Assembly (NCBI RefSeq): GCF_016859125.1
Contig: NZ_CP069338.1
Span: forward strand, 10,791,501 to 10,855,500
Length of the DNA stretch: 64,000 nucleotides
DNA from: Archangium violaceum
Lineage (GTDB): Bacteria; Myxococcota; Myxococcia; Myxococcales; Myxococcaceae
Direction of reading: 5' to 3'
The position numbers were made by a program, and so were the translations under genes. A model generated the notes under the pieces. The model made no database searches and was not told the DNA's origin. It saw only the letters and a program-made list of their open reading frames with translations. Below are positions 20,201-48,390 of the stretch, piece by piece. Positions within the stretch are counted from its first letter, which is position 1. Each line of letters begins with the position of its first letter.

Positions 20201-23200
20201 GTGAACCGGGTGGAGGTCTCTCGAGCGGAGCAGGACTCGCCTGTGCTCCAGGAGATGGGCCCCTATCTCCTCCAGGGGGTCCTCGGCAGCGGCGGCATGG
20301 GAATCGTCTACCTGGGAGTCCACCGGGAGACGGGCGAGCGCGTGGCGCTGAAGACGGTGCGTGTCACCCGCGCCTCCACGCTGGCGAGCATCCGGCGGGA
20401 AGTCCAGTTGCTCAGTCGCATCCAACACCCGGGCATCGTCCGGATCCTCGATCACGGAAGCTCCGGCGGCCTCCCCTGGTACGCCATGGAGCTGCTGGAG
20501 GGACGGACCTTCAATCAGCTCATCGAGGGGTACTACCACCAGGCCAACACCCGGGCTCGAGACGCGGCGCCGAAGCTGCCCGCCCGCCCGCTGTTGGAAC
20601 GGGTACTCCAGCTGTGCGCGCCGCTGGCCTACCTGCACGGCTGCGGCATCGTCCACCGCGACCTCAAGCCCGGCAACATCTTCATCCGGAAGAACGGCAC
20701 CGTGGTGCTCGGCGACTTCGGGGTGGTGGTGGAGTTCGGAGGGGCCCAGGGACGGGAGGTCCTCCAGGCGGACCACGCCGGCATGGGCACGCTGATGTAC
20801 ATGGCGCCCGAGCAGATCCGCGGAGATCTCGTGGACGCCCGGGCCGACCTCTACGCCCTCGGCTGCATCCTCTACGAGTGCGTGACCGGCTTCGTCCCCT
20901 TTCTCGGCAACTCGCCGCAGATCGTCCGCCGCCGGCACCTGCAGGACACGCCCACGCCTCCTTCCCTGCTCGCCGAGGAGCCCATCCCCGAGCCGCTGGA
21001 GTGGCTCATCCTCAAGCTCCTCGCGAAGCGGCCCGAGGACCGGCTCGGCTATGCCGAGGACGTGGCCCGGGTGCTCTCGGAGCTGGGAGTGGAAGCCGAT
21101 GAGCCCGACGAGGATCGCCCCCGGCCCCGGCCCTACCTCTACCGCCCGCCCTTCACCGGGCGGAAGGAGGCCATGCGCGAGCTGAACGATCTCCTGGACG
21201 AGATGCTGTTCTGCAAGGGCGGGCGGGTCTTCATCGGCGGTGGCAGTGGCGTGGGCAAGACACGGCTGGCCCTGGAGCTGGCCCGCGAGGCCCTCCACCG
21301 GGATCTCCCGGTGGTGACCTGCGAGTGCATCCCGCTCGGTCTCTCCGGCACGCGGGTGGATGCCGGCATGAGGGCCCCGCCCCTGCATCCCTTCCGCTCG
21401 CTGCTGGCCGCGGTGGCGGATCACTGCCAGCACGGCGGCGCGAAGGAAACGGCACGGCTGCTCGGACCGAAGGGCAAGGTGCTGGTCGCCTACGAGCCAT
21501 CCCTGGATCAGCTCCCCGGTCAGCGGGAGCTGCCTCCACCGCCCCCAGTCCCGGATGCCGATGCCGCGCGCGCCCGCATCTTCTCCGCCCTCCAGGATGT
21601 CCTCTTCGCCTTCGCCGAGGAGGATCCGGTCCTGCTGATCATCGACGATCTCCAGTGGGCGGACGAGATGACCCTGGCCTTCCTGCGGCAGCTACGGCAC
21701 GAGGACCTGGTCGAGCGAGGCGTGCTGCTGCTGGGCACCTACCGCATGGAGGAGATGGGTGACGCGCTGCGGGAGGTGGTCTCCGCCCCGGGCTCCCTTC
21801 ACATCGAGCTGGGACGGCTCGACGAGCGCAGCATCGAGTCGATGGCGCGCGGCATGCTCGCCCTGCACTCACTCCCCCGGGACTTCGACAGGCTGGTCCG
21901 CCGCTCCGAGGGCAACCCGTTCTTCGTCGCCGAGTACCTGCGGGCCACCATCTCCGAGGGGCTGCTCCACCGGGACACCGCCGGCGAGTGGCGGCTGGAC
22001 GAGCGGGTGCGCACGGGGGACTCGCTCGAGGAGCTGTCGCTGCCCGGCTCCATCGCGGAGATCATCCACCGGCGCCTGCGCGACCTGGACGCCAGGGCCC
22101 AGCTGGTGGCGGAGACCGCGGCCGTGCTCGGACGCGAGTTCGACGCGGACCTCCTGCTGGACACGGTGCCGCTGGAGCACACGGCGGCCCTGGAGGCCCT
22201 GCAGACGCTGCGGGTCCGGCAGATCCTCGAGAAGGCCGCGGGCGGCAGGCTGCGCTTCCTCCACGACAAGCTGCGGGAGTTCACCTACGCCAGCATCACG
22301 TCCCAGCGAGGCCGCCAGCACCACCGCCGGGCCGCGGAGGCCATCGAACACCGCTACCAACAGGCGCTCGACTTCTCCCTGTACTTCCCGAGCCTGGCCA
22401 ATCACTGGGCCAAGGCCGAGGTCCACGATCAGGCCAGCCGCTACTTCCAGCTGGCGGGGGATCGCGCGAGCGCGACCCATGCCAACGCGGAGGCCATCCT
22501 CTTCTACCGGGCGGCGCTCACCGAGGCCCACGCGTACCTGCGACAGGAGCGCGACGAGCCGGAGGACTGGCGACGGGCCCTGCTCCGCGTCCACGAGCAC
22601 CTGGGAGACGTCCTGGCGCTCTCGGGACGGCAGGAGGAGGCCCGGGCGGCCTTCGGCGACGCGCTGGCCCGGCTCTCCCCGGACGAGCGGCTCCATCGCG
22701 CCTGCATCCATCGCAAGGTAGGCAAGACGTGGGAGACACTCCACCAGCACGAGGACGCGCTGCGCGCCTATGACGAGGCCGAGGCCGCCCTGGGACCCGC
22801 GCCCGAGGAAGCCGGCGAGCGAGCCCCGGACATCGCCGACTGGTGGAAGGAATGGGTGCAGCTCCAGGTGGATCGTCACTGGACGTACTACTGGATGAAC
22901 CGGCGGGAGGAGATGGACGCGCTGGTGAGGAAGTTACGAACTGTCGCGGAGACACGGCTGACCCCGCTGCAACGCGCCAACTTCTTCGTGATGGTGCTCA
23001 ACACCGCCTTCCGCCAGGAGCGCTACGTGGTCCAGTCCGAGACGTTGGAATACGGCCGCCTCGCGGTGGAAGCCGCCGATGCCTCGGGGGAGCCAAGCAC
23101 GCGCGTGGCCACCCGCTTCAGCAACGCCTTCGCCCTGCTGTTCCATGGAGACCTGGACGAGGCCGAGCGGCAAAGCCTCGCCGGGCTGGAGCTGGTGGAA

Positions 23201-23701
23201 CAGACGGGGGACCTGACGCAGAAGTCACGCCTCCTCACCTACCTGACCCTGATCTACCGCAAGCGGGGCGACGTCGACCGCGTGCGCGAGTACAGCGAGC
23301 GGAGCCTGGAGCTGGCACGCGCCACGCAGATGCGTGACTACGTGGGCGCGGCCCGGGCCAACCACGCCTGGGTGGCCTGGCGGGAGCAGCGGGTGGACGA
23401 CGCCGAGCAGGAGGCTCGCACGGCCCTGGAATGCTGGAGCAAGCTCTCGACGCTCTACCCCTACCCGTTCCAATGGCAGGGATTGTGGGTGCTCGTGGCG
23501 GTGGAGCTCCAACGTCATGCGCTGGCTCGAGCGGTGGAGCATGCGCACGCACTGCTGGACCCGACCCAGCAGCGACTACCGGAGTCCCTGACCTCCGATC
23601 TGGAAGCGGCACTCGACGCATGGAAGCAGGGTCGCCAGGAGCAGGCGCGGGAATACCTGGAGCACGCCGTCGGCTCCGCCCGGCGACAGGGATTTCTGTG
23701 A
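20201..23701 (+). CDS. Multidomain Ser/Thr kinase with AAA ATPase and TPR-like region (PknK type)
   Basis: The 1166-residue protein has a kinase domain at about residues 20-290 (VLGSGGMGIVYLG, VALKTV, HRDLKPGNIF, DFGVVVEF, MAPEQIRG), a STAND-type ATPase at about 320-600 (Walker A GGGSGVGKT near 345, Walker B LLIIDDLQWADE near 480), and a helical TPR-like C-terminal half of more than 500 residues. This is the PknK/MalT-like signalling layout common in myxobacteria: the ATPase-TPR part probably senses a ligand or partner and controls the kinase. No membrane segment. GTG start preceded by GGGGGGAG. Confidence 0.92.
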   Translation: MNRVEVSRAEQDSPVLQEMGPYLLQGVLGSGGMGIVYLGVHRETGERVALKTVRVTRASTLASIRREVQLLSRIQHPGIVRILDHGSSGGLPWYAMELLEGRTFNQLIEGYYHQANTRARDAAPKLPARPLLERVLQLCAPLAYLHGCGIVHRDLKPGNIFIRKNGTVVLGDFGVVVEFGGAQGREVLQADHAGMGTLMYMAPEQIRGDLVDARADLYALGCILYECVTGFVPFLGNSPQIVRRRHLQDTPTPPSLLAEEPIPEPLEWLILKLLAKRPEDRLGYAEDVARVLSELGVEADEPDEDRPRPRPYLYRPPFTGRKEAMRELNDLLDEMLFCKGGRVFIGGGSGVGKTRLALELAREALHRDLPVVTCECIPLGLSGTRVDAGMRAPPLHPFRSLLAAVADHCQHGGAKETARLLGPKGKVLVAYEPSLDQLPGQRELPPPPPVPDADAARARIFSALQDVLFAFAEEDPVLLIIDDLQWADEMTLAFLRQLRHEDLVERGVLLLGTYRMEEMGDALREVVSAPGSLHIELGRLDERSIESMARGMLALHSLPRDFDRLVRRSEGNPFFVAEYLRATISEGLLHRDTAGEWRLDERVRTGDSLEELSLPGSIAEIIHRRLRDLDARAQLVAETAAVLGREFDADLLLDTVPLEHTAALEALQTLRVRQILEKAAGGRLRFLHDKLREFTYASITSQRGRQHHRRAAEAIEHRYQQALDFSLYFPSLANHWAKAEVHDQASRYFQLAGDRASATHANAEAILFYRAALTEAHAYLRQERDEPEDWRRALLRVHEHLGDVLALSGRQEEARAAFGDALARLSPDERLHRACIHRKVGKTWETLHQHEDALRAYDEAEAALGPAPEEAGERAPDIADWWKEWVQLQVDRHWTYYWMNRREEMDALVRKLRTVAETRLTPLQRANFFVMVLNTAFRQERYVVQSETLEYGRLAVEAADASGEPSTRVATRFSNAFALLFHGDLDEAERQSLAGLELVEQTGDLTQKSRLLTYLTLIYRKRGDVDRVREYSERSLELARATQMRDYVGAARANHAWVAWREQRVDDAEQEARTALECWSKLSTLYPYPFQWQGLWVLVAVELQRHALARAVEHAHALLDPTQQRLPESLTSDLEAALDAWKQGRQEQAREYLEHAVGSARRQGFL

Positions 23702-23796: not shown

Positions 23797-24720
23797 ATGA
23801 GGCACGTCACGACCGTGGTAGGCGCCACCGGGCTGCTGGGCGGTAGGATCTGCGAGCATCTGGTGGCGGCGGACGTGCCCGTGAGGGCCCTGGTCCGGCC
23901 GACCTCGGCTCCAGACAGGGTCGAGCGGTTGGCGCGGGCGGGGGTGGAGCCCCGGCGGGGAGAGCTGAAGGATCCCGCCTCGCTCGATGCGGTCTGCGAG
24001 GGAGCCCGGGCGGTCATCTCGACGGCCTCCTCCACGCTGTCGCGACAGGCGGGAGACTCCATTCAATCCGTGGATCTGAACGGTCAGCTCGCCCTCGTGA
24101 AGGCCGCCCGGCGCGCCGGAGTGGAGCACTTCGTTCTCATCTCCTTCGCTCCCCTCCAGGGGCGCTTTCCCCTGCAGGATGCCAAGCGCGCGGTGGAGGA
24201 GGCGCTGAGGAGGAGTGGAATTCCCCGCTACACCGTCCTCCAGCCCAGCTACTTCACCGAGGTCTGGCTGAGCCCCGCCCTCGGCTTCGATTACCGGAAT
24301 GCCCGGGCCCGCCTCTTCGGAACGGGGCACGGAGGGATGAACTGGATCTCCGTCGAGGACGTGGCCCGCGCCGCCGTGAAGGCCCTGACGAGTCCCCGGG
24401 CCTGGAACGCGGTGCTCGAGCTCGGCGGGGAAGAGGCGCTCGGCCAGCTCGACGTGGTCCACCTCTTCGAGCAGTGGAGCGGGCGGTCCTGGACCCTGGA
24501 GCACGTGCCCGAGCAGGAGCTTCGCGAGCAGTGCATCGGCGCCACGGATCCGCTCCAGCGCTCCTTCGCCGCGCTGATGCTCAATGTCGCGCTCGGAGCC
24601 CCGGTCGATCCCAGGCCGGCGATGGAGGCCCTGTCGCTACGCCCCAGCCGACTACGCGACTACGTGGCGCGCGTGGTGGCCGAGCAGTCGCTGCCGCAAC
24701 GTGAACCCCAGATGAGCTGA
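23797..24720 (+). CDS. NmrA-like NAD(P)-binding SDR protein
   Basis: The 307-residue protein has the atypical-SDR loop VVGATGLLGGRICEHLVAAD, followed by VRALVRPTS and RGELKDPASLDAVCEGARAVI, the pattern of NmrA/HSCARG and complex-I-assembly-like NAD(P)H-binding proteins. ISVEDVARAAVKAL matches the family's late helix. Substrate unknown; some members only sense NAD(P)H. It precedes the YcaO-TfuA genes by 100 bases in the same direction; a short GACTC/GAGTC inverted repeat after its stop could separate them. Confidence 0.8.
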   Translation: MRHVTTVVGATGLLGGRICEHLVAADVPVRALVRPTSAPDRVERLARAGVEPRRGELKDPASLDAVCEGARAVISTASSTLSRQAGDSIQSVDLNGQLALVKAARRAGVEHFVLISFAPLQGRFPLQDAKRAVEEALRRSGIPRYTVLQPSYFTEVWLSPALGFDYRNARARLFGTGHGGMNWISVEDVARAAVKALTSPRAWNAVLELGGEEALGQLDVVHLFEQWSGRSWTLEHVPEQELREQCIGATDPLQRSFAALMLNVALGAPVDPRPAMEALSLRPSRLRDYVARVVAEQSLPQREPQMS

Positions 24721-24820: not shown

Positions 24821-25621
24821 ATGAATCAGAACGGTCATCAGCCGTCGCAGCTGAACGGTCAAATCGATTCACGAGTCCGGTACATCCTGTTCACCGGCAA
24901 GGTGAAACACGGTCACTTGTTGCGTTATCTCCTGGCGACCCAGGGTCGAAAGCGATTGCTGGAGACATATGGATTGCGCCGGCAGGTGAAGTCTTCCGCG
25001 CTGACGGGCGACCCGGATCATGTGTTCGAGGTCTACTACGCCGACGAGCCCGAGCGGCTGATCCGGGATTCCGACCAGCCCCTGGCGCTGGACGGAATGA
25101 TGAACGAAGAGGACGCCGCGCAGTACCTGGCGCTCCAGGAGATCATCGACGCCGAGCGACTCCCGGCGCGTGAGGTGTTGGATCCCTCGAGCCCGGAAAT
25201 CCCCCACATGCGGACGCTCCTCCAGATGCCCTATTTGCTCGAGCAGAAGAGCCAGGAAGAGGTCTCCCGGGATCTGGCGACGGCGCCCTACCTCCTGAAC
25301 GACATCTGCGTCCTGAAGAAGGAGGACGGTGAGGACCCGGTGAGCAGGCTCACCCGCTTCACTGATTACGTGTCCCAGATCATCCCCACCTTCGCCCAAT
25401 CGGGCTTCTCCCTGCTCGTCGCGGGCCAGTTCGAGTCCCACCCCGACTGGATCCTCAACATCTGGCAGCTCGAGAACCTCGAACAGCACCGGGAACTGAT
25501 GCTGCGGCTCGCGGACAACCGCGTGTATTCCGAGATCGACAAGCTGTGCAACCAGGAGCAACACCTCTGCCGGAACGTGTCGCGCTTCTATCAATACCAT
25601 CCCTTCCTGATGACCGCCTGA
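24821..25621 (+). CDS. Unrecognised protein, first gene of the YcaO-TfuA cluster
   Basis: A 266-residue soluble protein of unknown family, preceded by AGGAG 5 bases before the ATG. The N-terminal third (VRYILFTGKVKHGHLLRYLL, KRLLETYGLRRQVK) is mixed alpha/beta. The C-terminal 90 residues (SGFSLLVAGQFESHPDWILN, WQLENLEQHRELMLRL, ending FYQYHPFLM) have the strand-helix spacing and Trp/His pattern of NIPSNAP-like dimeric alpha-beta barrels; this is a weak resemblance by eye. It ends 30 bases before the two-module gene of the same cluster. A role as accessory enzyme or binding protein for the YcaO-TfuA pathway is inferred from position only. Confidence 0.7.
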   Translation: MNQNGHQPSQLNGQIDSRVRYILFTGKVKHGHLLRYLLATQGRKRLLETYGLRRQVKSSALTGDPDHVFEVYYADEPERLIRDSDQPLALDGMMNEEDAAQYLALQEIIDAERLPAREVLDPSSPEIPHMRTLLQMPYLLEQKSQEEVSRDLATAPYLLNDICVLKKEDGEDPVSRLTRFTDYVSQIIPTFAQSGFSLLVAGQFESHPDWILNIWQLENLEQHRELMLRLADNRVYSEIDKLCNQEQHLCRNVSRFYQYHPFLMTA

Positions 25622-25651
25622 GACAGACGATCCCTCAGCAGGAGCCACCTC

Positions 25652-26449
25652 ATGAACAACGGAAAATCAAAGCCAGGCCAGGCCGAGCGGACACGCGTGA
25701 CGGCACTGCAACTCGAACAAGACGATCTGGTCATCTTCGGCGAGGACGGGAAGTTCCACCACGTACCCAAGACCTACTACGCGACCCCGGAGCAACGGCT
25801 CCCGGACAGGTTCAAGAGCGCACCGGAGTTCCTGGTGGGACTGGGGGCGGTGGTCGCGGACGTCACCGCCTATCAATCGGCACAGGAGGATGAGACGGCG
25901 CGCGAGCCCTTGACGGCGGATTGCGCCTGCATCGTGCTGAACATGGCCGCCATCCGGCAGGAGAGCGAGAAGCACAAGGATCCCCGCGCCGGGCGCCCGA
26001 TCCCGAACGGCGACCCGGTGAATGCCACCTCCGAGCCCCCCGAGGTCGAGAGCCCGCCAGGACTGCGGGTCGAGAGGGACGACCTGGTCATCTTCGGCGA
26101 GGACGGGAAGTTCTACCTGGTGAAGAAGCAGTACTACGAGCAGCAGGTGCTCCCGGAGGACATGCAGAGCGCACCACAACTCATGGTGGAGCTGGGCGCG
26201 GTGGTCGCGGACATCCCCCGTCTGCCCACGGCGGGCAGCGCCTGCCAGTTGGTGAACATGGCCTCCATCCGGAGGGGAAGCGCGCACGCCGCCCGGCTCG
26301 TCAAGGGGCAGCGGACGCAAGGCCTGGAGGTGGAGGGACAGAGACCCGTCGAGCGCCGCGCCCAGACCCGTCGTGGCTCGAGGTCCGGAGGCTCACGTAG
26401 GCGCGTCACGTCCATCGCCCACCGCGGGGATGACAGGAACGACGAATGA
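25652..26449 (+). CDS. Two-module tandem-repeat protein, candidate substrate of the YcaO-TfuA pair
   Basis: A 265-residue protein of no known family, with two copies of a module (about residues 21-103 and 140-210). Shared signatures are DDLVIFGEDGKF, a YY pair, SAP-L-V-LGAVVAD, and a closing Cys-containing segment (CACIVLNMAAIR in the first, ACQLVNMASIRR in the second). The last 50 residues are Arg-rich and look disordered. Its TGA overlaps the ATG of the YcaO gene (ATGA), so the two are coupled in translation. The repeated leader-like part followed by a Cys-rich segment would suit a RiPP-type precursor or another modified polypeptide; it could also be a structural partner. That role is inference. 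Confidence 0.72.
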   Translation: MNNGKSKPGQAERTRVTALQLEQDDLVIFGEDGKFHHVPKTYYATPEQRLPDRFKSAPEFLVGLGAVVADVTAYQSAQEDETAREPLTADCACIVLNMAAIRQESEKHKDPRAGRPIPNGDPVNATSEPPEVESPPGLRVERDDLVIFGEDGKFYLVKKQYYEQQVLPEDMQSAPQLMVELGAVVADIPRLPTAGSACQLVNMASIRRGSAHAARLVKGQRTQGLEVEGQRPVERRAQTRRGSRSGGSRRRVTSIAHRGDDRNDE

Positions 26450-27708
26450 TCGACCCGGCGACCCACACCGCCGCCACCGGACCGGCGGCGCCCAAGCGGT
26501 ACCGGGAAGGGACGCACCGCCTGCGCTCCCCCGAGGAGACGCTGCGGCGGGTGCGTCCCCTGATGGCGGTGATGGGCATCACCCGCATCGCCAACATCAC
26601 CGGCCTGGACCGTCTGGGCATTCCCGTGGTGACGGTCTGCCGGCCCAACTCACGCTCCCTCGCGGTCTCCCAGGGCAAGGGGTTGGATCTCACCTCGGCC
26701 AGGGTCTCCGGGCTCATGGAGGCCGTGGAGACGTATCACGCCGAGCACATCACCCTCCCGCTCGTACTCGCCAGTCACAACGAGCTGCGCTTCAGCCATC
26801 CGCTGATCGACGTCACCCGGCTCCCCCGGCTGTCGGTGGGCGCCTTCCACCCTTCCCTGCGGCTGCTGTGGATCGAAGGCCGCGATTTACGGGGCAACAC
26901 CCCGGTGTGGCTGCCCTACGAGCTGGTGCATACCGACTACACGCTGCCGCTCCCCTCCGGCAGCGGCTCGTTCTTCATGAGCTCCAACGGGCTGGCCTCC
27001 GGCAACCACCTGCTGGAGGCGATCAGCCACGGCCTGTGCGAGGTGGTGGAGCGCGACGCGACCACCCTCTGGCACCTGCGCACCGCGGAGGAGCGGCAGC
27101 GGACCCGGCTCGACCTGGACACCGTGGAGGACCCGGGCTGCCGCGAGGTGCTGGAGAAATTCGATCGCGCCGGGGTGGACGTGGCCGTCTGGGAGACGAC
27201 CTCGGATGTCGGTCTGCCCGCCTTCTTCTGCATGAGCGCCGAGCGCTCGCCGGAACCCCTCCGCCCGCTCTTTCCCACGACGGGCGCGGGGTGCCATCCC
27301 GCCCGCCAGGTGGCGCTCCTGCGCGCCCTCACCGAGGCGGCCCAGGTCCGGGCCACGTTGATCTCCGGCTCGCGCGATGACCTGGGCGTCGCCCGGTACT
27401 ACGAGACCCTGACGGACCCGGCCCTCTGGCTCCGCGTCCGGAAGCTGATGCACTCCGGCGAGCCCGTGCGGCGCTTCCACGAGATTCCCTCCTTCGAGGG
27501 GGACAGCTTCGACGAGGACGTGGCCTGGGAGTTGGAGCGTCTGGCCGCGGTGGGACTCGAGCAGGTGGTGGTGGTGGACCTCTCCAAGCCCGCGTTCGGG
27601 ATCGCGGTGGCGCGAGTGGTCATTCCCGGCCTGGAAGCCATTCACGACGCTCCGGGCTACGTCCCAGGTGCCCGGGCCCGCCGGCTCCTGGAGGAGCGCT
27701 CGCGATGA
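26446..27708 (+). CDS. YcaO-family ATP-dependent modifying enzyme
   Basis: The 420-residue YcaO enzyme has the ATP-binding motifs of the family: SQGKG (about 75), GLMEAVETYHAE (about 89-100) and NGLASGNHLLEAISHGLCEVVERDA region (about 181-205). YcaO proteins activate amide carbonyls by phosphorylation, making azolines, amidines or, together with TfuA, thioamides. The C-terminus ends VVIPGLEAIHD...RRLLEERSR and lacks the PxPxP end of azoline-forming cyclodehydratases; no E1-like or flavin oxidase gene is adjacent, which also speaks against azole formation. It overlaps both neighbours by ATGA. The likely product is a thioamide in the neighbouring protein or in another target. Confidence 0.88.
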   Translation: MIDPATHTAATGPAAPKRYREGTHRLRSPEETLRRVRPLMAVMGITRIANITGLDRLGIPVVTVCRPNSRSLAVSQGKGLDLTSARVSGLMEAVETYHAEHITLPLVLASHNELRFSHPLIDVTRLPRLSVGAFHPSLRLLWIEGRDLRGNTPVWLPYELVHTDYTLPLPSGSGSFFMSSNGLASGNHLLEAISHGLCEVVERDATTLWHLRTAEERQRTRLDLDTVEDPGCREVLEKFDRAGVDVAVWETTSDVGLPAFFCMSAERSPEPLRPLFPTTGAGCHPARQVALLRALTEAAQVRATLISGSRDDLGVARYYETLTDPALWLRVRKLMHSGEPVRRFHEIPSFEGDSFDEDVAWELERLAAVGLEQVVVVDLSKPAFGIAVARVVIPGLEAIHDAPGYVPGARARRLLEERSR

Positions 27709-29144
27709 TCTACGTCTTCGTTGGACCGACCCTCTCCGTGGAGGAAGCCAGGGCGGAGCTCGACGCGGTGTTCCTGCCGCCCGCGGCCCAGGGAGACGTG
27801 TACCGGACCGCGTGCGAACGCCCCGAGGCCATCGGGCTCATCGATGGGTACTTCGAGCGCACGCCCGCCGTGTGGCACAAGGAGATCCTCTGGGCCATGG
27901 CCGAGGGCATCCACGTCTACGGGAGCGCCAGCATGGGAGCCCTGCGCGCGGCGGAGCTGGCCTCGTTCGGCATGCGCGGAGTCGGCGCCACCTTCGAGGC
28001 GTTCCTGCACGGCGATCTGGAGGACGATGACGAGGTCGCGGTGGTGCACGCCCCGGCGGAAGAAGGCTATCGCCCGCTCTCGGAGGCAATGGTCAACATC
28101 CGGGCCACACTGGCGAGCGCCGAACGGGCGGGGGTAGTCCGCCTGGAGACGCGAGCCACATTGGAACGGATCGCCAAGGGGCTCCATTACCCGGAGCGTT
28201 GCTACCCCGCCCTGCTGGCCCAGGCTTCTCGCGAGGGAGTACCAGCCGTTGAGCTGGAGCGGCTCCGTTCCTGGTTGCCCCGGGGTCGCATCAACCAGAA
28301 GCGAGAGGACGCGCTGGCCATGCTGCGCGACATGCGCGAGGAGCTGGCGAACCACCCCGGTCCGAAGAAGGTCACCTATTCGCTCTCGCGAACGGATGCC
28401 TGGGAGGAGGCGCGCCGCCGCTCCGAGCAGCTCTCCTCGACTCTGGAGGGACAGGGAGGAGAACCCCTGCGGGAGTCGCTCCTCGAGGAGCTGCGAATCT
28501 CCGGCACGTTTCCTCGAGCCCGGCGGGGAGCACTGTTACGTGCGCTGGCGGTGGAGGAGGCCATGCGGCAGGGGCATGCCGTCCGGGAGGAAGAACTGCG
28601 TGAGGTCTGCGACACGTTCCGGCGCGAGCGCGGCTTGCTCGAAGCGGAGCGGTTCGAGCGCTGGCTCGAGGAGCAGCACGTCGAGGATGAAGTGTCGTTC
28701 TTCGAGGGGGAGTTCCAGGTGCGCCGGATCGAAGCGCTCCTCGAACCGGAGATCGCCTGGCATCTGCCAGACCACCTGCGCTCAACCGGCGAGTACGGGT
28801 CGCTCCTGGAACGCGTCCGCCGCAAGGAGCAGGTGCTCGCCGGGTCCGGACTGGAGAGGCCAGGACTGGCCGAGGCAGGGCTCTCCGAGGAGGAGCTCTG
28901 GGAATGGTACTTCCAGGAGCGGCTCGAGCGCCCCGTTCCTGCGGACATCGACGTGTACGCGCGCGCCCAGGGGTTCGCCGACGAAGATGCCCTCCGGCGA
29001 GCCGTGCTACGGGAGCGATGTTTCCTGCTCCCGCGGCACGGCCATTCTCATGAATCAGGCCCGACGCCGACGCATGGCGAGCAGGACCAGGCCCAGCAGG
29101 GGCAGCAGCGGCTGCGCGCCCGAGGCGGCACAGCCCCCGAGTGA
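27705..29144 (+). CDS. TfuA-family protein with long C-terminal extension
   Basis: A 479-residue protein whose first ~230 residues are the TfuA domain (MIYVFVGPTLSVEEAR, IGLIDGYFERTPAVWHKEIL, VYGSASMGALRAAELASFGM). TfuA partners YcaO enzymes in thioamide formation, probably by supplying sulfur, as for methyl-coenzyme M reductase glycine and thioviridamide-type peptides. The extra ~250 residues are helical and Glu/Arg-rich. The final ~35 residues (from HGHSHESGP) are translated from DNA antisense to the MYXO-CTERM gene: about 70 bases containing the original stop are missing relative to the duplicated fragment at 32196-32336, where the frame ends RERYFLLPQQGRIDAPAA. The function should survive, as the added tail is outside the domain. 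Confidence 0.83.
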   Translation: MIYVFVGPTLSVEEARAELDAVFLPPAAQGDVYRTACERPEAIGLIDGYFERTPAVWHKEILWAMAEGIHVYGSASMGALRAAELASFGMRGVGATFEAFLHGDLEDDDEVAVVHAPAEEGYRPLSEAMVNIRATLASAERAGVVRLETRATLERIAKGLHYPERCYPALLAQASREGVPAVELERLRSWLPRGRINQKREDALAMLRDMREELANHPGPKKVTYSLSRTDAWEEARRRSEQLSSTLEGQGGEPLRESLLEELRISGTFPRARRGALLRALAVEEAMRQGHAVREEELREVCDTFRRERGLLEAERFERWLEEQHVEDEVSFFEGEFQVRRIEALLEPEIAWHLPDHLRSTGEYGSLLERVRRKEQVLAGSGLERPGLAEAGLSEEELWEWYFQERLERPVPADIDVYARAQGFADEDALRRAVLRERCFLLPRHGHSHESGPTPTHGEQDQAQQGQQRLRARGGTAPE

Positions 29145-29939
29145 GACGGAGAAGGAGCGCGTAGCGGAACGCGGCTCGAGAGTGTTTCCGCTGGCATCCA
29201 ACGCGCCCACGTTCAGCTTGTGCTCGCCCTCCTTCAAGGGAGCCGTTGGCCTGAAGCTCCAAGCCCCGGAGTCGTCGGCCAGCACCACGCCACTCTTCAC
29301 GTCATCGATGTAGACAGCCACCAGCCTCTGGGCCTGGGTCCGCCCGGAGATGACCGGGAACTCGGTATCCACGACGGCGCCGTCCGCAGGCTCCAAAATT
29401 TCCGGAGCGGAGGAAGCCAGGAGAGAGACGCTCCATTGATGGACGGAGGGAGACGGATCCACGTTGCCCGCGCTGTCCTTGGCACGCACCTTCAACGAGT
29501 GAGAACCCTCGGCGAGGTTCGTATAGAGCTGTGCCGCCGCACAAGCGGTGAAGTCGGCCGCATCATCGAGCTGGCACTCGAAATTCGTGGCCCCACTGGG
29601 GGACTCGAAGATGAAGACGGCGATCCCGGAGTAGTGGACGGACGGCGGACCCTCGACGATGTTGGTTTCAGGAGGCTCCGTATCCACATTGAAGGGGATG
29701 GAGGCGGAGCGAGCCCCCACGTTGCCCGCCGGATCGGTGGCCTCCGCGCTCACCGAGTGGGGCCCATTGCCCAGATTCACGGTGGTCTCAATAGTCCACA
29801 TCCCGAGATCGTCCGCCTGCTCGGAACCCGCGAGTTCCCCGTCCACGAAGACGCGAACCGTGCTGAATGGATCATCGACCTTTCCCTTGATGACCGGCGC
29901 TCGCGAGCCCACCATCCCATCTTTCGCAGGCTGGGTGAT

Positions 29940-46673: not shown

Positions 46674-48320
46674 TCAGAATTCGGCCGTGGCCCTAGGGTC
46701 CACGATTCCGCATTCCTTGATCTTGTAGAGCAGCGCCTTGTAGCTGATGCGCAACTTGCCCGCCGCTCTCCTCTTGTTCCAGGCCGTGCGCTGCAGCATC
46801 GCCAGGATCGCCTCGCGCTCGGCCAGCATCGCCGCCCGCTTGCCAATGTCCTTCAGCGACATCTCCCCCTCCGGCACGCTCGGCGGCGGAGGCGGAGGTT
46901 GTGGCACGTCGAACGGGTTCGCGTAGCGCACCGGCGCCACCTGATTCACCGGCACCTCCACCGGCGGCACCACCCCTCGCGACGGCATCTCCAGGACCTG
47001 CACCGAGCCACCCGCTCCCGCCGCCGTCACCGCCGGCATCGCGGCGGGGACCGGCACCCGGAGCGTCGGCGCGGGAGGCTCCACGTCCCCGTCTCCCGCG
47101 TAGGACGTCGGCAGCGAGGGCGCGCTCGCCGGCGTCCTGCCCCCGGCTCGCAGCTCGTCCAGCACCAGCGTCGGATCCTTCAGCACGCACAGCCGGCGCA
47201 CCATGTTCTCCAGCTCGCGCACGTTGCCCGGCCACTCGTACTCGGTGAAGGCCCTCAGCACCTCGGGCGGCAGCTCCGCCACCCCGCTCATGTACTGCCG
47301 CCCGTACTTCTTCAGGAAGTGGTCCGTCAGCGGAACGATGTCCTCGGGACGCTCGCGCAGCGCCGGCAGCCGGATGGCCACCACGTTCAGGCGGTAGAAC
47401 AGGTCCTCGCGGAAGTTGCCCAGCTCGATCTCCCGCTCCAGGTCGCGGTTCGTCGCCACCACCACGCGGCTGTCCACCCGGACGCTCTTCTTGCCGCCCA
47501 CCCGGAAGAACTCCTCGTCCTGCAGCACCTGCAGCAGCTTGGCCTGCAGCCGGATGGCCATCTCGCCGATCTCGTCCAGGAAGATGGTGCCCTGGTCCGC
47601 CAGCTCGAACTTGCCCGGCTTCTCCGCCGTCGCGCCGGTGAAGGCGCCCCGCTCATGGCCGAAGAGCTCGCTCTCCAGCAGCTCGCCCGGCAGCGCCGCG
47701 CAGTTCACCTTGATGAACGGACGGTTGCGCCGGTTGCTGCGCGCGTGGACCTCGCGGGCAATCACCTCCTTGCCCGTACCGGACTCGCCCAGGAGCAGCA
47801 CGGGCACGTCCGTGTCCGCGATGCGCTCCACCAACGCGCGCACCCGGCGCATGGCCGGCGAGTGCGAGATGAGGACACGCTCCCCGCTCGACTCCTCCCG
47901 GGCCGTCGCCGCGCTCGCCACCTGCGCGCCCGCGGTGCCCTGCCTCGCCGGCATGCGGCTGCCCAGGGCCCGGCTCATCGCGTCTTCCAGCTCGTCATTG
48001 CTGAAGGGCTTGGACAGATAGTCGCTGGCGCCCAGCTTCATGGCGCGCATGGCGTCCTCGGCCCCGGAAAGGGCCGAGAGCACGATGACGGGCGCGCCAC
48101 CTCCGGAGGCCCGGTAGCGCCGCAACACCTCGAGCCCGCTCATCTCCGGCATCATCACGTCCAGCAGCACCACGTCGAATGAGCCACCGGAGAGCATCTC
48201 CAGTGCCTGGGAGCCACTCGACGCGCAGCGCACCTGGTACCCCGAGCTGCTGAGCAGCTCGGCGAGGAACGTCCGCACCTGCTCCTCGTCGTCCACCACC
48301 AGCACCGCGATCCGATCCAT
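46674..48320 (-). CDS. NtrC-family sigma-54-dependent response regulator
   Basis: The 548-residue activator has a receiver domain (VLVVDDEEQ, LLDVMMPEMSG with Asp about 53, VLSALSG, YLSKPF), an AAA+ domain (Walker A LLLGESGTGKEVIAREVHAR, ELFGHERGAFTGATAEKPGK with the sigma-54-contacting GAFTGA, Walker B GTIFLDEIGEM), a long Pro-rich linker and a C-terminal Fis-type HTH (MLQRTAWNKRRAAGKLRISY). It turns on sigma-54 promoters when phosphorylated; no cognate kinase gene is adjacent. ATG 48320 follows GGAGGCGAGGGG. It could act on promoters such as that at 5291, but nothing here links the two directly. Confidence 0.93.
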   Translation of the reverse strand: MDRIAVLVVDDEEQVRTFLAELLSSSGYQVRCASSGSQALEMLSGGSFDVVLLDVMMPEMSGLEVLRRYRASGGGAPVIVLSALSGAEDAMRAMKLGASDYLSKPFSNDELEDAMSRALGSRMPARQGTAGAQVASAATAREESSGERVLISHSPAMRRVRALVERIADTDVPVLLLGESGTGKEVIAREVHARSNRRNRPFIKVNCAALPGELLESELFGHERGAFTGATAEKPGKFELADQGTIFLDEIGEMAIRLQAKLLQVLQDEEFFRVGGKKSVRVDSRVVVATNRDLEREIELGNFREDLFYRLNVVAIRLPALRERPEDIVPLTDHFLKKYGRQYMSGVAELPPEVLRAFTEYEWPGNVRELENMVRRLCVLKDPTLVLDELRAGGRTPASAPSLPTSYAGDGDVEPPAPTLRVPVPAAMPAVTAAGAGGSVQVLEMPSRGVVPPVEVPVNQVAPVRYANPFDVPQPPPPPPSVPEGEMSLKDIGKRAAMLAEREAILAMLQRTAWNKRRAAGKLRISYKALLYKIKECGIVDPRATAEF

Positions 48321-48390
48321 CCCCTCGCCTCCCCTCACCCTGTCCATCTCGATTCACTCCGTGGGACGTCCCTGTCGGGTCCGCCCCTCG

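Follow-up and report, generated by a model that had tools for sequence, protein, structure and literature searches.

We analysed a 64,000-nucleotide stretch of the 12.68-Mb, single-contig genome of Archangium violaceum (contig NZ_CP069338.1, positions 10,791,501 to 10,855,500), referred to below as the window. It carries a YcaO gene and a TfuA gene together with the gene for a two-module partner protein and, further upstream, the gene for a protein kinase-ATPase. A first-pass annotation had placed four tightly packed genes at 24821-29144, and their coordinates, the + strand, the ATGA overlaps at 26446-26449 and 27705-27708 and the gap of 30 bases between gene 1 and the two-module gene were all confirmed. 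The four genes stood as members of the set but not as its full extent, since the conserved kinase-AAA_16 gene at 20210-23701 had been overlooked.

20210..23701, + strand: Ser/Thr protein kinase-AAA_16 ATPase, 1163 amino acids (aa); the open reading frame (ORF) can start at 20201
24821..25621, + strand: gene 1, 266 aa, outside any known family; an accessory partner among loci of the window's subgroup
25652..26449, + strand: two-module protein, 265 aa, proposed YcaO-TfuA substrate
26446..27708, + strand: YcaO, 420 aa, PF02624
27705..29144, + strand: TfuA, 479 aa, TfuA domain plus C-terminal extension

The YcaO protein scored 287 bits against PF02624 (cut-off 25.7) and the TfuA protein scored 158 bits against PF07812 (cut-off 30; residues 47-165), which bears out the identities first assigned to them. 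The two genes are adjacent and both families lie above cut-off, the genetic arrangement that marks a thioamide-forming pair. Among solved structures, the best relative of YcaO was MJ1094 (6pe3; E 4e-40, residues 18-398), with an alignment that covers the ATP-site stretches as judged by eye, and the cyclodehydratases TruD and LynD came next. TfuA matched the TfuA domain protein 6xp8 (E 6e-33, residues 3-211). Scores fell below the equivalog cut-offs for McrA thioamidation (TIGR03266 for YcaO, 241.5 vs 365; NF033432, 210.9 vs 235.2) and, for YcaO, below that of the azoline-forming SagD family TIGR03604 (132.5 vs 219.25). Azoline-forming YcaO cyclodehydratases usually have an E1-like or ThiF-like partner, and none was found among the six scanned window genes of the set. 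There was also no protease or transporter among these six genes; neighbours in other loci were scanned in part. One part of the TfuA extension has a weak database match:

28548..28745, + strand: part of the TfuA C-terminal extension, weakly similar to TIGR04500 (27.3 bits, E 2e-6)

The cut-off of TIGR04500, a PpiC-related putative peptide maturation protein, is 180, far above this score.

According to the excerpts of PMC13063428, YcaO activates a backbone amide with ATP, and TfuA functions as a hydrolase through which sulfide is transferred from thiocarboxylated carriers of the ThiS type. Asn can be thioamidated by a YcaO-TfuA pair (PMC13174530, in excerpt). The substrate can also be a whole protein; McrA is thioamidated, and loss of YcaO or TfuA leaves the McrA peptide 16 Da lighter (PMC5589413, in excerpt). 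McrA and uL16 are the protein substrates of backbone thioamidation named in these excerpts.

Two modules are plain in the sequence of the partner protein, in which DDLVIFGEDGKF occurs twice. We compared this protein with its relatives in two alignments: A1, built from relatives of the two-module protein in a protein database, and A3, in which 49 sequences are aligned to a fragment of module 2.

25709..25963, + strand: module 1, residues 20-104 (borders by eye; from the sequence and A1)
26075..26275, + strand: module 2, residues 142-208 (borders by eye; from the sequence, A1 and A3)
25928..25957, + strand: candidate site 1, CIVLNMAAIR, C93-R102
26243..26272, + strand: candidate site 2, CQLVNMASIR, C198-R207

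At site 1, C93, N97 and R102 are invariant in A1. Over the 94 residues covered by A3 only two columns are invariant in the 49 sequences, the Cys at C198 of site 2 and a Leu two positions later. The motif thus seen twice in the window's protein (C93-N97 and C198-N202) is followed by 167 and 62 residues, respectively. The computed tryptic peptides that hold the sites are residues 85-102 (EPLTADCACIVLNMAAIR, 1902.94 Da) and 191-207 (LPTAGSACQLVNMASIR, 1730.88 Da). Scans with Pfam and NCBIfam placed neither the two-module protein nor gene 1 in any family above cut-off, in agreement with the earlier view that the partner belongs to no recognised family. Database searches found 19 relatives of the two-module protein, itself counted, and these lie in kinase-linked loci wherever the genome context was read. 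It had been considered that homologues might occur mostly without YcaO and TfuA. This was checked and is not so: 11 of 96 genomes contained matches to the A1 profile, 16 in total. Each of the 16 lies in a kinase-linked locus, with YcaO and TfuA in the same stretch everywhere except at a contig break in genome G061. A scan of genome contigs with the same profile gave two loci.

The kinase protein has a Pkinase domain at residues 22-283 (154 bits) and an AAA_16 domain at 314-498 (75 bits) in Pfam; its C-terminal region is weakly similar to TPR_12 (23.5 bits, cut-off 30.1). A search with this protein in 96 genomes of the window's family, in which the best 7 candidates per genome were scored, listed 48 places. 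Thirty-six of these were close, the window included, and the other 35 had 46-75% identity, some of them (e.g. in G020 and G030) covering the protein incompletely. The other 12 places were shorter matches in other large kinases, none of them at a TfuA position among the TfuA matches listed. All 36 neighbourhoods were read with a simple gene caller, the YcaO of locus L036 being read in frame. Downstream of every one of the 36 kinases, within five genes, lies a gene for a protein that carries the motif C-x-[LIVM]-[LIVMF]-[ND]-[LM]; we call these the slot proteins, and in most sets the slot gene is immediately before YcaO. YcaO and TfuA are in the same stretch for 33 of the 36 listed kinases. In the other three the arrangement differs. 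The G061 contig breaks off, and a YcaO-TfuA pair is found on the border of a different contig (L073); G035 (L114) and G005:C407 (L115) have kinase and slot genes with no YcaO-TfuA alongside.

The motif is nearly restricted to the slot. It matched 41 times in 37 slot proteins (8,507 aa) and 4 times in 770 other predicted proteins (279,316 aa), a contrast that is inflated, partly by construction, because slot proteins were chosen by the motif within five genes downstream; one of the 4 other matches is a second slot protein, in L032. Despite this way of choosing them, no locus was without one. A narrower form of the motif gave 39 matches, all in slot proteins (duplicate stretches L030 and L031 counted), and the mean in shuffled sequences was 0.2. 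Searched with a DNA pattern for C-[FY]-L-[LIVMF]-[ND]-L, the window's own genome gave a single match, which falls in the slot gene of the system's second copy (12.186 Mb); the reversed form of the pattern, a control, matched 6 times, and the window's sites, CIVLNM and CQLVNM, fall outside the pattern. A strict motif search, covering reading frames of at least 40 residues within 3 to 3.5 kb of YcaO/TfuA, found nothing in 19 stretches that carry further YcaO-TfuA pairs or fragments (L027, L029, L074, L077, L079, L080, L084, L086, L087, L091, L093, L100 and L102-L108).

Around this motif the slot proteins differ greatly. They span 115-487 aa and include the two-module type (the window, L005 from Hyalangium versicolor and L006 from A. 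violaceum), a single-module type, the L037 type with a longer front plus one module (named relatives from Myxococcus, Pyxidicoccus and Corallococcus) and long repeat-like proteins (L028, L076). The slot proteins of the window and L037 are clearly related (BLAST E 2e-6), and the window's protein has no clear similarity to those of L028, L071, L076, L081 and L114 (BLAST E 0.9-8). The earlier picture of the partner stands in that it is tied to YcaO-TfuA; the window's protein is, however, a single example from a varied set of slot proteins with the motif in common. In 31 of 36 loci, between 7 and 62 residues separate the last motif from the C-terminus. A hairpin-like stretch with a DG turn is found some tens of residues ahead of the motif. 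A 25-residue profile of this stretch ranked 28 slot proteins at the top, many of them kin of its own rows; peptides from L086 and L093 came next (E 0.03 and 0.07, weak), then L097 and L076. L071, L089 and L096 were not within the first 60 of this ranking.

The second copy in the window's own genome (L028/L116, 12.174-12.196 Mb) has a kinase, a slot protein, YcaO and TfuA. Its slot protein is 487 aa long with SCYLLNLSTLL near its end, an ISAs1-like transposase gene lies between slot and YcaO, and a sigma-54 activator gene adjoins the kinase gene. In L032 two YcaO-TfuA sets stand in tandem on either side of a single kinase gene; the slot protein is of the single-module type in one set and of the two-module type in the other.

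We also compared the YcaO proteins in a tree of 52 sequences of at least 330 residues, from which the shorter fragments L029 and L077 were left out. Such a kinase is encoded in the same stretch as 34 of the 52, and all 34 fall in one group of 40 (support 99/99). The six others in this group are L073 (the contig edge), L080 (G035), L084 (G005), L074, L086 and L093. G035 has a kinase-slot pair that stands alone and also, at another place, a YcaO-TfuA pair of this group with neither kinase nor slot; the two pairs may work in trans.

Three members of this group have other surroundings. The L074 YcaO adjoins a guanylate cyclase-AAA_16 protein. Those of L086 and L093 are beside large kinase-like proteins; the L086 protein was scanned and is a kinase-AAA_16-GAF-histidine kinase, and that of L093 is alike by length and position. 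All three loci have a peptide of 81-91 aa before YcaO that starts MKELQ(I/V)VG(D/E)DG. The window's own genome has two further YcaO-TfuA pairs of other types, L027 (7.05 Mb) and L029 (10.876 Mb). The L027 type (L027, L102 and L104-L108) forms a separate YcaO group in which no motif was seen, and in L105-L107 a kinase gene directly follows TfuA.

The role of the slot protein as a dedicated substrate of YcaO and TfuA is well supported by the co-occurrence of the kinase, slot, YcaO and TfuA genes. The first-pass annotation had offered the partner as either substrate or leader carrier; the first part of this gains from the co-occurrence. With the conserved motif located in the partner polypeptide itself, a separate leader carrier is a less likely possibility. 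For the fuller reading, in which the slot protein is modified at the motif, most likely to a backbone thioamide, within a pathway run by the kinase, we judge the chances to be slightly better than even. The thioamide is suggested because of the known chemistry of YcaO-TfuA pairs, and because this chemistry includes thioamidation of Asn, the conserved Cys and Asn are the first candidate residues. On this reading, the slot protein would be co-produced with YcaO and TfuA. YcaO with ATP would activate a carbonyl of the backbone within or next to the C-x-L-L-N-L motif, and TfuA would supply the sulfide for a thioamide, with the conserved Cys and Asn as its most plausible positions. Docking would probably take place through the hairpin-like stretch. 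The modified slot protein would remain protein-sized, as McrA and uL16 do, and would act in the pathway run by the neighbouring kinase-ATPase protein.

Several observations weigh against this reading. The motif contrast depends in part on how slot proteins were chosen, many loci are near-copies so that about nine slot types were counted by eye, and more such kinases may exist beyond the best 7 candidates scored per genome. Similar strands without Cys recur in the long slot proteins of L028 and L076, as judged by eye, and a buried strand might be all that the motif's hydrophobic part represents. In L033-L035, the Cys of the second module is shifted or lost. The split systems are also imperfect. 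In G035 the pairing is inexact, the lone YcaO being nearest to L089/L096 and the lone slot protein nearest to L097 (63% identity), and this genome has further YcaO-TfuA pairs (L093, L102). We looked for a clean partner match for this split system and did not find one, with YcaO and slot protein pointing to different loci. The G005 case counts for less because its comparable YcaO (L084) ends at the contig border and so is not readable as stand-alone; G005 also carries the complete sets L006 and L069. Structure models were poor, with a mean predicted local distance difference test score (pLDDT) of 46.3 for the whole two-module protein and, for module 2, 68.5 and a predicted template modelling score (pTM) of 0.39. 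A Foldseek search of the PDB with the module 2 model gave nothing (best E 1.2), and we therefore claim no fold. Profile searches of solved structures were at chance level, both for gene 1 (alignment A4, best E 0.12) and for the slot proteins (alignment A2, best E 0.08).

The alternative that survives best is that the slot protein is the precursor of a ribosomally synthesised and post-translationally modified peptide (RiPP), of which the C-terminal part is modified and cut off as a small peptide while the module serves as leader. The placing of the last motif near the C-terminus is like that of RiPP cores. L086 and L093, in the same YcaO group of 40, have a proline-rich peptide of 81-83 aa before YcaO, and the weakly similar hairpin stretch in these peptides makes them look like ordinary precursor peptides. 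However, the scanned window genes lack a protease or transporter, the window's protein bears the motif twice with 167 and 62 residues following the two copies, and the motif is almost invariant. The cores of antibiotic RiPPs, unlike the slot motif, are not known to be near-invariant. We consider the RiPP route unlikely. It is improbable to a greater degree that YcaO makes a thiazoline, or another cyclised product, at the conserved Cys and that TfuA is otherwise employed. The Cys is invariant in A3, and YcaO enzymes are able to install thiazolines (PMC13063428, in excerpt); TfuA is nevertheless present in 33 of the 36 listed loci, the scanned window genes include no E1-like or ThiF-like partner, and MJ1094 is the best solved match, ahead of the cyclodehydratases. 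Just as doubtful is a slot protein that is a structural or sensing partner with the motif as a buried strand, YcaO-TfuA modifying the kinase or another protein, an idea that draws on the Cys-less strands of L028 and L076 and on L114 and L115 and sits poorly with a Cys that is invariant in otherwise diverging proteins and a slot gene placed immediately before YcaO in most sets.

Backbone thioamides are rare, and the dedicated-substrate reading can be set beside the systems in which they are made. As in McrA thioamidation of methanogens (TIGR03266/NF033432; 6pe3, 6xp8), there are YcaO, TfuA and a protein-sized substrate; the substrate and host group differ, and the window's system has the kinase link, the TfuA extension and equivalog scores below cut-off. 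The window's locus differs from the uL16 system in that the uL16 substrate gene is not known to lie beside the enzyme gene. That system, from Pseudomonadota, likewise has YcaO acting on an intact protein, and TfuA is not near those YcaO genes according to the excerpts of PMC13063428. Thioamidated RiPPs (thioviridamide-like, thiovarsolins, thiopeptides, std) likewise have a YcaO-TfuA pair beside the substrate gene, and the std cluster has a conserved C-terminal motif and a modified Asn (PMC13174530, in excerpt), comparable to the motif and candidate Asn of slot proteins. By contrast with these, slot proteins are 115-487 aa long and kinase-linked, with no protease among the scanned window genes. 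The TOMM kinase/cyclase fusion (TIGR03903) resembles the window's kinase in joining a kinase to AAA_16. The match is partial, at 258.9 bits (cut-off 705.75), and the window's kinase has no cyclase domain in the Pfam scan and has TfuA alongside. Among the papers listed in literature searches we found no description of a kinase-linked YcaO-TfuA family, judging by titles and abstract openings. TfuA clusters were mined widely in PMC8120280, the excerpts of which place Corallococcus among the genera of the dominant proteobacterial families; the word "kinase" is absent from its main text, and its networks may include some kinase-linked loci.

More tentatively, the system may be a signalling one, in which the kinase-ATPase controls thioamidation of the CxLLNL motif and thereby switches or primes a dedicated protein. 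This would be a third class of protein-sized thioamide substrate beside McrA and uL16, with fast-changing scaffolds around a fixed site. A recurrent family that joins a co-encoded putative protein substrate and a sharply defined candidate site to a linked kinase would offer an experimentally tractable bacterial model in which to study the function of a backbone thioamide within a protein, and the known uses of YcaO-TfuA would extend beyond methanogenesis and peptide natural products.

Within the searches made, the kinase-linked YcaO-TfuA family did not extend beyond the Myxococcus-Archangium group. Of 195 Myxococcota genomes searched with profile A2, 28 had matches, 41 altogether, and every one of the 28 belongs to the window's family; this was with the best 15 candidates scored per genome, and a limit of up to 30 gave the same 41. 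Forty of the matches fall in kinase-linked loci, and the other one (E 3.5e-4) seems to be a stray. Many of the profile's 31 rows come from kinase-linked loci, which makes the matches to those loci circular in part. The matches new beyond the rows of A2 are the kinase-slot loci of G035 and G005:C407, which have no YcaO-TfuA alongside. A protein search with A2 found at least 33 proteins, and all those with a named organism were myxobacterial. TfuA is commoner than the system, occurring in at least 109 of 195 genomes, with loci read in part.

A sigma-54 activator gene lies at or near the kinase gene in many loci (18 rows, the query counted, 60-100% identity to the L037 gene). Sigma-54 domains were found in five scanned neighbours (L071, L081, L097, L101 and L116), three of which (L071, L081 and L097) also have FHA domains that could read phosphothreonine. 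The window's only BLAST relative of the L037 activator is far off, at 46674-48347. A crude sigma-54 promoter pattern was found upstream of none of the 34 scanned kinases, some with uncertain starts, or of two window genes. An anti-phage defence reading was considered and dropped. In PADLOC, 32 families matched the kinase protein, the 25 shown all did so at the kinase domain (best PD-T4-6, 231.6 bits), and none matched the other four proteins.

One further gene lies between the kinase-AAA_16 gene and gene 1:

23797..24720, + strand: NmrA-like NAD(P)-binding protein, 307 aa (Pfam NmrA, 114 bits); accessory

It is present in seven of the eight stretches of the window's subgroup that were compared (the window, L006 and L032-L036) and absent from L005. 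Gene 1 has 16 relatives, itself counted, and these occur in L005, L006, L032 (two) and L036 (two), with a longer form in L033-L035. A NIPSNAP-like fold was suspected for gene 1, and Pfam and solved-structure profile searches gave it no support. Downstream, a convergent ORF at 29055-29915 on the - strand shares 90 bases with the 3' end of tfuA. The protein that it encodes terminates in GGCAASGAQPLLPLLGLVLLAMRRRRA, which we take to resemble a MYXO-CTERM sorting tail.

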